64,000 bases of DNA from Endozoicomonas sp. G2_2 (GTDB lineage Bacteria > Pseudomonadota > Gammaproteobacteria > Nevskiales > Salinisphaeraceae). The stretch spans positions 124,001 to 188,000 of the forward strand of contig NZ_JAGHQU010000004.1 of NCBI RefSeq assembly GCF_017744135.1, written 5' to 3'. The notes under the pieces are model-generated. The model did not search any database, was not told the DNA's origin, and saw only the letters and a program-made list of their open reading frames with translations. How positions within the stretch are numbered: the first letter of the stretch is position 1; every line of letters begins with the position of its first letter. The translations under genes were made by a program, and so were the position numbers. Of the stretch, positions 7,515 to 52,877 are shown piece after piece.

Positions 7515-8135
7515 GTGAACGATTCCGCTTGTCCATCATCCCGCGGTCAGCTCTACGTCATATCCGCGCCTTCCGGGGCCGGCAAGACGAGTCTGACCCA
7601 TGCCCTGATCGAACGCCTCGCCCGTCATGGCCGCAAGGCGCGCTTTTCCGTGTCCTACACCACGCGTGACGCGCGCCCCGGAGAGGTCGACGGCGAGGAT
7701 TACCATTTCGTGCCTGTCGCCGAGTTCGAGACCATGATCGAGGACGGCGCCTTTCTCGAACATGCGCGGGTCTTCGATCGCTATTACGGCACGTCCGCTG
7801 CCGAAACCGAGCGCTGGCTCGCACACGGCCAGGACGTGGTGCTCGACATCGACTGGCAGGGCGCGCGTCAGGTGCGCGAACGCGCGGCAGGGGTGATCAG
7901 CATCTTCATCCGTCCGCCGTCGCGCGACGAACTCGAGCGGCGGCTGCGTGCGCGCGCTTCCGACGATGAGGCGCAGATTGCGCGCCGCCTGGCCGAAGCC
8001 GACGACGAGCTCGCCCGTGCCGACGAATACGATCATCAGATCATCAACGATCATTTCGACGATGCACTGGACGCGCTGGAGCGGATCTTTCTGTCGGCCG
8101 CACAAGGGCCGTCGGCGCCGCGCTCACAGGCCTAG
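7515..8135 (+). CDS. gmk: Guanylate kinase
   Basis: Guanylate kinase phosphorylates GMP to GDP with ATP. The P-loop SAPSGAGKTSL sits near residue 20. The GMP-binding part includes FSVSYTTRDARPGEVDGEDYHFV and GAFLEHARVFDRYYGT. VVLDIDWQGARQVR and the C-terminal DEYDHQIINDHFDDAL complete the fold. The GTG at 7515, 8 bp after the yicC stop, gives 206 residues, in line with the usual 200-210. The open frame upstream of this GTG only shadows yicC. Confidence 0.96.
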   Translation: MNDSACPSSRGQLYVISAPSGAGKTSLTHALIERLARHGRKARFSVSYTTRDARPGEVDGEDYHFVPVAEFETMIEDGAFLEHARVFDRYYGTSAAETERWLAHGQDVVLDIDWQGARQVRERAAGVISIFIRPPSRDELERRLRARASDDEAQIARRLAEADDELARADEYDHQIINDHFDDALDALERIFLSAAQGPSAPRSQA

Positions 8136-50167: not shown

Positions 50168-50820
50168 CGAAGATCTCCTGAACAATCATGTGCTGTAACT
50201 GGGCTCGCCGCTGTCCGGTCGAACAGCGCGCATAGCCGGCGTGCGGCCGCGCCGCTGTCCGGGGCCTGAAACAGCGCGCCGGACACCGCGATCAGGTCGG
50301 CGCCGGCGGCGATCACGTCGCCCGCATTGTGCGTATCGATACCGCCGATGGCGACCACCGGTACGCCGAGCGCGCGTGCCTCGCCGAGCACGGACAGATC
50401 GGCCGGCGGCGCGTCCGGCTTGGTGCGCGAGTCGAAAAAGCGTCCGAAGCTGACATAGCTCGCACCGGCCGCGATACCGTCGCGTGCCCGCTGGATACGG
50501 GCCGAGCAGCTCACGCCGATGATGGCATCCGGGCCCAGGGCGGCTCTCGCCTCGGCGACGCTGCCGTCGCTCTGGCCCAGATGCACGCCGTCGGCCCCGA
50601 TGGCGCGCGCGAACCGCCAGTCGTCGTTGACGATGAGTGCCGTGCCTGCGGCCCGGGTGCGTTCACGCAAGACCTGGAGCAGTGTCCGGTCGGGCGCGTC
50701 GGGTCGCTTGTCGCGATACTGCAGCCAGACCGCGCCCGCGGCGAGCACGGCATCCACCCGCGCCAGGTCGTCGTCCAGCGTGGTGCGATCGTAGATGGCG
50801 TAGAGCCCGCGTGCGCTCAT
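50164..50820 (-). CDS. thiE: Thiamine phosphate synthase
   Basis: ThiE joins the pyrimidine and thiazole halves of thiamine. It has 218 residues from ATG 50820. Characteristic features: [10 protein letters not shown] (residues 33-42), [30 protein letters not shown] and [14 protein letters not shown], with [25 protein letters not shown] split at the phosphate-binding end. It shares ATGA overlaps with thiD upstream and hemL downstream. Confidence 0.95.
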
Positions 50821-51599
50821 GAGTCGCGCGCGGGCTGGATGCGTGCCGGAATGTGCTGGCCACGGCCGGCCGCGAAAGCGTTGTCGAGCGTGCGCCAGAC
50901 GTAGGCCTGGGCGCGGCGCACTGCGGTTGCACGATCGTGCCCGTGGGCAAGCTGGGCGGCGAGGGCGCTGGCCAGGGTGCAGCCCGAGCCGTGGAACACG
51001 CCGGGCAGCCGCGGCCAGCGATGCATTTCGCGCGGTTCGCCGGCGACATACTCGCGGTTGATGACTTCGCTGTCGCCTTCGTCGCCGCCGGTAATCAAGG
51101 CGCAGCGGCCGTTGGCGCTGAGGCGCGCACCGCAGCGGTCGATATCGGCCTCGCCGTCGCAGAGCAGGCGCGCTTCGCCGGCATTGGGCGTGACGACATC
51201 GGCGTGCGCGAACAGGTGGTCGCGCAGCGCCTGACCGACGCTGTCGTCGGCGAGCGTGCCGCCACCGGCCGCGCGCAGCACGGGGTCCACCACCAGCGGG
51301 ACGTTCGGCAGGCGTTCGGCCAGGTCGACGATGCGCATCACCTGTTCGGCGTTGGCAATCACGCCGACCTTGATAGCGGCGAAGTCCATATCGGCCAGCG
51401 CGGTCTCGAGGCAGCGGTCGAAAAAATCCGCCGCCACTGCCTCGACGCCATGGACATTGGTGGTGTCCTGACAGGTCAGCAGGGTGATCACGGTGGCTGC
51501 ATGGGCGCCGTTCGCCGCAGCGGCTTCGATGTCGGCCTGAATACCGGCGCCGCCGCTGGGATCGTGGCCCGCAATGACCAGAATATTGGGACGTTTCAT
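50817..51599 (-). CDS. thiD: Hydroxymethylpyrimidine/phosphomethylpyrimidine kinase
   Basis: ThiD phosphorylates HMP and HMP-P for thiamine synthesis. It has 260 residues from ATG 51599 (a start six codons upstream is less likely). Motifs: IAGHDPSGGAGIQADIEAAAANG split, ALITGGDEGDSE, and the catalytic GSGCTLASALAAQLAHG near residue 205. thiD-thiE-hemL is a compact operon, and the 500-bp DnaA-box region lies directly upstream of thiD. Confidence 0.95.
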   Translation of the reverse strand: MKRPNILVIAGHDPSGGAGIQADIEAAAANGAHAATVITLLTCQDTTNVHGVEAVAADFFDRCLETALADMDFAAIKVGVIANAEQVMRIVDLAERLPNVPLVVDPVLRAAGGGTLADDSVGQALRDHLFAHADVVTPNAGEARLLCDGEADIDRCGARLSANGRCALITGGDEGDSEVINREYVAGEPREMHRWPRLPGVFHGSGCTLASALAAQLAHGHDRATAVRRAQAYVWRTLDNAFAAGRGQHIPARIQPARDS

Positions 51600-51638
51600 G
51601 GACGCCGAGTCTATCATCGGCGCCCGCCGGCGGCGGGC

Positions 51639-51647
51639 TTATACACA
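51639..51647 (+). promoter_or_regulatory. DnaA box 1 (TTATACACA)
   Basis: Matches the consensus TTATNCACA. It lies 40 bp upstream of the thiD start. Confidence 0.6.
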
Positions 51648-51791
51648 GTAGAAAACGAGCGTCGTCGGAGCGCGGTGAAAATTTTTCAGGTGCAGGCGTA
51701 CTCGTCTTCTGAAATATCGCAAGTATCTGATAATAAATGCGTGTGTCGAGCTGGTTACAAAATCGCCGCTTCGGGGAAATTACTGAGAACA

Positions 51792-51806
51792 TGCCGTTTA
51801 ACGGCA
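51792..51806. promoter_or_regulatory. 15-bp perfect dyad 1
   Basis: TGCCGTTTAACGGCA, arms of 7 bp around a single T. It shares the frame TG-x-CG-x-TTA-x-CG-x-CA with the dyad at 51970. Confidence 0.55.
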
Positions 51807-51830
51807 CTCGTCCGAACAGTTTCCACACAC

Positions 51831-51839
51831 TTATCCACA
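51831..51839 (+). promoter_or_regulatory. DnaA box 2 (TTATCCACA, consensus)
   Basis: An exact match to the high-affinity DnaA box. Confidence 0.7.
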
Positions 51840-51923
51840 GCTTCTGTGTATTTCTGTTCTTTAGCGTTTGAGCTCAACCGTTTAGCTCGTTTTGCTCATC
51901 GAGTGTCTGCGCCGAGAGGCGGG

Positions 51924-51932
51924 TTATGCACA
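51924..51932 (+). promoter_or_regulatory. DnaA box 3 (TTATGCACA)
   Basis: Matches TTATNCACA, same strand as the others. Confidence 0.6.
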
Positions 51933-51969
51933 GTGTCAACACGGTTGCCGTTGGCGAAAAGGTCTGATA

Positions 51970-51984
51970 TGACGCTTAGCGTCA
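51970..51984. promoter_or_regulatory. 15-bp perfect dyad 2
   Basis: TGACGCTTAGCGTCA, arms of 7 bp around a single T, same architecture as the dyad at 51792. Confidence 0.55.
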
Positions 51985-52106
51985 CATTGTGTTTGTTCGT
52001 AAAATTCTGAAAATAAATAAAAATAATATTCGAATGCCCGGGTTGCCGCCCCTTTGAGCCCGGGCCGGTCAGGTCCGGCTCGCGCGTCCGCAATTCGTCC
52101 CCAGTT

Positions 52107-52115
52107 TTATCCACA
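52107..52115 (+). promoter_or_regulatory. DnaA box 4 (TTATCCACA, consensus)
   Basis: A second exact high-affinity box. It overlaps the final codons of the minus-strand phosphodiesterase gene. Confidence 0.65.
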
Positions 52116-52877
52116 GGCCAGCCGTGCGGCTTCAACGCGACGCACGCGCGATGTCATGTCGCCGTCGGGTGTCAGCGTGAGCACGCGATAGCCCGGTGCG
52201 CGCTGCGCGTCTTCGGCGAAACCGTGCGACTGCGGCAGGAACTGACGCATGGTCGCAGGCGTGACGAAGCAGGGCCGGCCCGCAAACGTGAGCGCTGCCT
52301 GCTGATGGGCATGGCCACAGACGATCGCCCGCACATGCGGGTGTCGCTCGATCACGGCGGCAAGCGCGTCGCGATCCTGCAGACCGATGGCGTCGATCCA
52401 GGCGCTGCCCACCGGGCAGGGCGGGTGATGAACGAACACCAGCGCCGGGTTCGGGTGCCGGCTGAGCTGCGCGTCCAGGTCATGCAGCTGTCGGGCGCCG
52501 ACACGTCCCGCTTCGCTTGAGTCCAGATGGCTGTTCAGGGCAAAAAGCTGCCAGCCGCCGATTTCCAGCCGCGTATGCACGCGGGCATGGCGCAGATGGG
52601 CGGCCATGCGCGCCGGGTCGTCATGATTGCCGGCCATGGCGAGCACCGGACGCCCGAGTGCGGCGAGACGATCATCGAGCCGCGCATAGCCCGCGGCGGT
52701 TTCGTCGTCGACCAGGTCGCCGCCGAGCACGAACGCCGCGGCGTCAGGGACCGCATGGCAGATATCGTCGAGCACGAGCTCGAGGGCGCGCTGCACGTGC
52801 CAGCCGTGCAGCCGGGCGTCGGCCTCGCCGAGCAGGTGAAAGTCGGTGAGGTGGACGAGTCGGACAGAGGGCGGCAT
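52107..52877 (-). CDS. CpdA-like cyclic nucleotide phosphodiesterase (metallophosphoesterase)
   Basis: This 256-residue calcineurin-like metallophosphoesterase has all five metal-site blocks: DFH (HLTDFHLLG, about residue 12), GGDLVDDE (about 51), AGNHDDP (about 82), FVHHPP (about 147) and CGHAHQQA (about 187). The organisation matches CpdA, the 3',5'-cAMP phosphodiesterase. Substrate cannot be fixed from sequence, as other members cleave other nucleotides. Its 3' end touches the DnaA-box region. Confidence 0.85.
   Translation of the reverse strand: MPPSVRLVHLTDFHLLGEADARLHGWHVQRALELVLDDICHAVPDAAAFVLGGDLVDDETAAGYARLDDRLAALGRPVLAMAGNHDDPARMAAHLRHARVHTRLEIGGWQLFALNSHLDSSEAGRVGARQLHDLDAQLSRHPNPALVFVHHPPCPVGSAWIDAIGLQDRDALAAVIERHPHVRAIVCGHAHQQAALTFAGRPCFVTPATMRQFLPQSHGFAEDAQRAPGYRVLTLTPDGDMTSRVRRVEAARLACG

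Follow-up and report, generated by a model that had tools for sequence, protein, structure and literature searches.

Two tandem DnaA-box modules beside thiD resemble DARS2 and datA and form a candidate DnaA control site

DARS2 and datA, two loci of DnaA control, were worked out in Escherichia coli and are described for its near relatives; the 2009 DARS paper is reportedly cited for wide conservation. At the DARS core of E. coli, ADP-DnaA molecules pair head to head and release ADP, and DARS2 is activated by IHF and Fis, according to the available text of four papers (PMC4245941, PMC8682772, PMC10380432, PMC5742627). DARS1 works without IHF and Fis in the accounts available in those papers, while minimal datA, which inactivates ATP-DnaA, is described in the accessible parts of two others as having a single IHF site and none for Fis (PMC10950094, PMC4585315). 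The DARS2 core, the Fis sites FBS2-3 and the boxes are displayed, in the available sections of one study, for seven E. coli-proximal species including Vibrio cholerae and Shewanella denitrificans (PMC8682772), and sequences like DARS1 and DARS2 are conserved across many proteobacteria according to the available portion of another (PMC10380432).

Here we describe a locus in a 64-kb stretch of DNA (the window) that we read, with a probability of roughly 0.65, as a DnaA control site and not an origin: module A would be DARS2-type with a full parts list, module B datA-like, and the two a tandem of one module family (Table 1). All four copies of the DnaA-box pattern TTATNCACA in the window lie on the + strand between thiD and the phosphoesterase gene. 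Only 0.34 copies were expected and none of 100 shuffles of the window reached four, confirming the original prediction of a genuine one-strand cluster of four boxes within 480 bp. The genome-wide scan for DnaA boxes found 26 copies of TTATNCACA in the 3.73-Mb genome, compared to 11 for the reversed-pattern control, and four of the 26 fall inside these 477 bp, the densest group in the genome. The segment is AT-rich as claimed (G+C of 0.509 at 51618-52106 vs 0.652 for the whole window) and mostly intergenic, but it is not strictly gene-free because the stop codon of the phosphodiesterase ORF and the last box overlap. The A/T-only block, put at about 30 bp, is in fact 21 bp at its longest (52010-52030), and of two perfect dyads claimed one, TGACGCTTAGCGTCA at 51970-51984, is visible directly in the sequence. 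An inverted-pair scan (arms of at least 9 nt) gave three pairs, only one of them 100% complementary and spread over 224 nt. A search of Rfam up to E = 1 gave no match in the segment and one chance CRISPR repeat match outside it.

Table 1 Features of the locus and its two flanking genes (positions in the window)
Feature	Position	Strand	Sequence or remark
thiD	50817..51617	-	Phos_pyr_kin, PF08543; adjoins module A
Module A (DARS2-type, predicted)	51639..51853	+	left DnaA box, IHF-type site, Fis-type site, three-box core
Left DnaA box of A	51639..51647	+	TTATACACA
IHF-type site of A	51720..51732	+	CAAGTATCTGATA, 1 mismatch to YAANNNNTTGATW, 111 bp before right box
Fis-type site of A	51753..51767	+	GGTTACAAAATCGCC, 1 mismatch to GNNYANNNNNTRNNC, 78 bp before right box
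Weak DnaA box of A	51819..51827	+	GTTTCCACA, at place of DARS core box III
Right DnaA box of A	51831..51839	+	TTATCCACA, at place of DARS core box II
Inverted weak DnaA box of A	51845..51853	-	AAATACACA, 6/8 match, 5-bp gap, at place of DARS box I
Module B	51924..52115	+	box, IHF-like site, box; without Fis-type site and box I
Left DnaA box of B	51924..51932	+	TTATGCACA
Weak IHF-like site of B	52000..52012	+	TAAAATTCTGAAA, 2 mismatches, adjoins A/T-only run
Degenerate box of B	52095..52103	+	TCGTCCCCA, 12 bp before right box
Right DnaA box of B	52107..52115	+	TTATCCACA, overlaps stop codon of phosphodiesterase ORF
Calcineurin-like phosphoesterase	52107..52877	-	PF00149, short name cpdA; adjoins module B

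Both modules of the window are about 200 bp long and consist of TTATNCACA, about 80 bp, an IHF-type site, about 110 bp and TTATCCACA. The step from TTATNCACA to TTATCCACA was constant at 185-193 bp, and the pattern used to search for modules was TTATNCACA-N168..190-TTATCCACA. Within the order it matched 71 of 85 genomes and 20 of 21 genera, leaving 14 genomes without an exact match; the reversed pattern gave no match there, and none of the 85 genomes matched when the gap was shifted to 191-213. In the class sample the pair was present in 205 of 369 genomes, from 153 of 271 genera (164 genomes without an exact match), and one reversed-pattern match (G321) was seen in the class-sample table. Many genomes have one to three exact module copies; that of the window has two, both at this locus, in tandem. 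When the 531-bp segment was used as a DNA query, matches were found in 17 of 61 genomes (its own and 60 relatives), including seven other members of the genus, and the best conserved part lay around 51727-51862. Module A is conserved noncoding DNA in these seven genomes and could be aligned in eight, and most columns of its Fis-type site are invariant across nine aligned genomes.

The anatomy of the modules was examined in 154 distinct sequences (identical modules counted once) from 98 genomes, with 52 of the order's 71 matching genomes and 46 further genomes represented. In 96 of the 154 modules the right box was preceded, at 108-113 bp, by an IHF-type site (YAANNNNTTGATW, one mismatch or none), as against a mean of 0.66 and a maximum of 4 in 200 rounds in which the inner bases were shuffled. 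In 58 modules a weak same-strand box preceded the right box by exactly 12 bp, with none at any other spacing between 9 and 29, and an inverted box followed the right box at a gap of 5 in 58 modules and at another gap in one. Modules were called A-type if they had TGT or GTG at the 5-bp gap (box I), which gave 104 A-type and 50 B-type modules; under this rule, which replaced an earlier split by box I score (96 and 58), a priA-linked module (G031, L164) falls among the A-type by chance, and overlapping matches led to a double count of one module of G017. Of the A-type modules, 91 of 104 had a Fis-type site 77-79 bp ahead of the right box, vs 3 of 50 B-type modules (shuffle control for A-type: mean 4.1, maximum 10). 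This agreement between box I and the Fis-type site is informative because the split did not use the Fis site, with the related genomes not being independent of each other. Of the B-type modules, 24 of 50 had an IHF site within one mismatch.

We then compared both modules to the E. coli loci, for which the DARS1 and DARS2 cores were read from NC_000913. Both cores have the same III-3-II-5-I arrangement as the A-type modules, with gaps of 3 and 5 bp, and module A reproduces it at 51819-51853 with exact gaps, an inverted box I, and weak boxes III and I. As in E. coli DARS2, the IHF site of A has the same orientation and lies at a fixed distance on the box III side, but at 111 bp from box II, as against 99 bp for IBS2 of DARS2, its arm exceeds that of DARS2 by about one helical turn. 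The IHF pair of DARS2 was located 3 bp apart, agreeing with the available text of PMC4245941, while no IHF match within one mismatch was found in the stretch of E. coli DARS1 examined. Module A and DARS2 also have in common a Fis site (in A a predicted one, matching the consensus with one mismatch at -78), an intergenic place and a position between origin and terminus. The order of the sites is different: in A it is core, Fis, IHF and not the E. coli order of core, IHF, Fis (FBS2-3), since the Fis-type site of A lies between core and IHF site, whereas the essential FBS2-3 of DARS2 lie beyond IHF as seen from the core (PMC4245941, available text). A one-mismatch Fis match was also seen 55 bp from box II of DARS2. 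There is no box in DARS2 at the place of A's left TTATNCACA, box V pointing the opposite way, and the B module in tandem is a further difference from DARS2 (rppH/ygdT-mutH region).

Similar to both modules here, E. coli datA (glyVXY-queG) has a box (+), an IHF site and a box (+) in the same order and orientation, with arms of 65 and 97 bp compared to about 78-81 and 108-111 bp. The affinity order of its two boxes differs from that of the modules. Module B has the two boxes of this layout on one strand together with a weak IHF match (two mismatches). The inverted box that follows box 3 of datA after 3 bp is absent from B, and no inverted box lies beside its right box that could correspond to the third essential box of datA (box 7, which in our own reading is the inverted match at 7919 in the datA stretch, L143). 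Since A has the parts of DARS2 and B is without a strong IHF match and a third box, A is best read as a DARS2-type DnaA-reactivating site with its IHF and Fis sites in permuted order, fused to a module that would at best work like datA. The seven species displayed in the available sections of PMC8682772 keep the E. coli site order, whereas the modules here come from an order that those sections do not mention. Neither the core-Fis-IHF order nor the priA-linked second module nor the tandem was found described in the accessible text of the open-licence literature, including PMC7174414, a search in which the term "datA" was blunted by the word "data"; an earlier report outside that literature is possible.

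The two module types differ in their neighbours. By tblastn, 43 of 48 A-type modules of the order adjoin thiD (one adjoins priA, four neither), while 25 of 35 B-type modules adjoin priA, 7 thiD and 3 neither, these last three having an ORF of the PriA cluster within about 80 bp. The seven thiD-side B-type modules include the overlapping double count of G017 and one module in a sister genus (G015). A scan of a contig collection with the ThiD of the window found no relative. Six of the 14 genomes of the genus carry the exact tandem of A and B (G000, G003, G004, G005, G011, G012) and the other eight lack it, and alignment showed that the B half is eroded in G001, G002 and G008. In the sister-genus genome G015 the priA module is intact, and there is in addition a tandem, with TTTTGCACA as the left box of its A copy. 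The weak box contains CCCC[AG] in 5 of 7 tandem B modules, 10 of 25 priA-linked B modules of the order and 0 of 43 thiD-linked A modules, and a GTCAA word stands near the left box in 5/7, 19/25 and 2/43, respectively. With these shared features, tandem B resembles the priA kind and looks like a copy of such a module rather than a duplicate of A. Upstream of priA itself, 13 of the 14 genomes of the genus have a lone TTATCCACA (L227-L240) with an IHF match no better than 6/9, and the left box is missing in most of these loci; the rest of that module seems to have eroded in the genus.

From the sequences, spacing, conservation and chromosomal place of the modules we infer the following binding events and biochemical steps. 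The stretch between the core of A and its distal box would be bent by IHF and Fis, and on boxes I and II of the core ADP-DnaA would pair head to head and lose its ADP; the freed DnaA could then be recharged as ATP-DnaA and promote initiation at an origin near dnaA. DnaA bound to module B would be held in a loop and titrated or inactivated, as at datA. The genome encodes IhfA and a Fis homologue with 53% identity to E. coli Fis, and Fis was present in 21 of 21 genomes searched. Box I of A, which matches at only 6 of 8 positions, the two mismatches in the IHF match of B and the 8 of 14 genus genomes without an exact tandem speak against this reading of A and B, as do the differences from DARS2 in the place of the Fis site and in the left box. 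A broader proposal, which we advance tentatively and regard as doubtful, is that Salinisphaera has fused within 480 bp a recharging site (A) and a discharging or sequestering site (B) that are separate in other families of the order. The two would be copied together at each passage of the fork, and the on/off balance would be set inside one locus and not, as in E. coli, by the unequal gene dosage of two distant loci; both would stem from a DnaA-IHF-DnaA family old in Gammaproteobacteria, of which E. coli datA and DARS2 would be two derived forms.

Alternatively, the locus could be a passive titration site (a reservoir) without a catalytic role, at which IHF and Fis merely shape the DNA. We consider this unlikely: each module does contain several consensus boxes, and titration has been argued for such E. 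coli loci (PMC12371093, in its available part), but titration alone needs no fixed spacing of 190-200 bp, no three-box core and no IHF and Fis sites at fixed places. The "datA-like reservoir" of the original prediction was apt in that this is a DnaA-regulatory locus with IHF-type sites, whereas its first half is better matched by DARS2 and there are two modules. A DnaA-regulated promoter, also proposed there, has most room at module B. DnaA is known to regulate promoters too, and the linkage in the order of A-type modules to thiD and of B-type modules to priA, with the right box of B often within some 10 bp of the priA ORF, would suit DnaA- and IHF-controlled promoters for these two genes, B having been carried along beside the phosphodiesterase gene. 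However, outside the order none of 56 A-type modules in the class sample adjoins thiD and 24 of 56 adjoin priA with the inner geometry unchanged (B-type: 6 of 15 adjoin priA, none thiD), the B module of the window adjoins the 3' end of a gene, and no such boxes are found upstream of E. coli priA, all of which makes promoters a quite improbable explanation.

The cluster had also been proposed as a chromosomal oriC in an unusual place, in line with its box density, its low G+C and the 21-bp A/T run. This is highly improbable, as the GC-skew minimum is not here. On the 312-kb contig of the locus (C28), GC skew is positive in 16 of 16 stretches, and motifs of the KOPS type (which we take to be GGGNAGGG) number 29 forward and 1 reverse. 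The dnaA gene lies on another contig (C29:17757), and within 40 kb of it the skew turns from slightly negative to positive. In the complete single-contig genome of the same genus, G008, where skew was sampled in 35 stretches of 20 kb, dnaA is at 1.4537 Mb and the homologous locus at 0.433 Mb, that is 1.0 Mb or half a replichore away. Skew there is negative to about 1.44 Mb and positive from about 1.48 Mb, turning at about 1.44-1.50 Mb beside dnaA, with one slightly negative stretch at 1.60 Mb, and reverses again between about 3.46 and 3.50 Mb. No ORF resembling mnmG was noted at 44-64 kb of the window, and the one to three exact copies of the module in many genomes also argue against an origin. 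A proposal that B lies nearer to the origin than A, as datA does, was dropped: it held in all 3 genomes of the order that have A, B and dnaA on a single contig (G080, G036, G022) but is no rule in the class, in which the priA-linked modules of G439, G366 and G167 have the opposite order of origin distance.

If the reading of the locus as a DnaA control site is true, then, with the module in roughly half of the gammaproteobacterial genomes sampled, control of the nucleotide bound to DnaA through DNA loci would be an old trait of the class, one that could be tested in many organisms. The tandem would serve as a natural experiment, showing whether it matters how far apart the two kinds of site lie on the chromosome. 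Candidates can now be found by a simple pattern, two boxes at 168-190 bp. A pattern for a triple-box tandem, run across a broad contig collection, matched at least 117 stretches but was rejected as a specific finder, since many of the matches listed were in lactobacilli, Rubrobacter, Bacteroidota and others. Among the 14 loci examined of the 80 listed, Oleibacter marinus (L299) and an Oceanospirillaceae record (L316) have two modules in tandem besides Salinisphaera, both IHF-type sites matching at 8/9 in each, and Parathalassolituus penaei (L300) has one such IHF-type site and one poor one; the tandem modules of this group (L299/L300/L316) are about 100 bp apart. The other ten loci showed a weaker fit or none.

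A few further arrangements were seen in single genomes. At L192 (G149), two A-type modules about 2.2 kb apart flank one short gene group, and genes related to the flanking ones also stand next to modules in G280, G383 and G317. One 124-kb stretch (G042:C1:388102-512443) holds 28 of the 65 copies of TTATNCACA in its genome, 24 of the 28 on the + strand. G329 gave 19 matches to the DnaA ATPase family, mostly of 98 aa and alike, which are probably a multicopy transposon helper.
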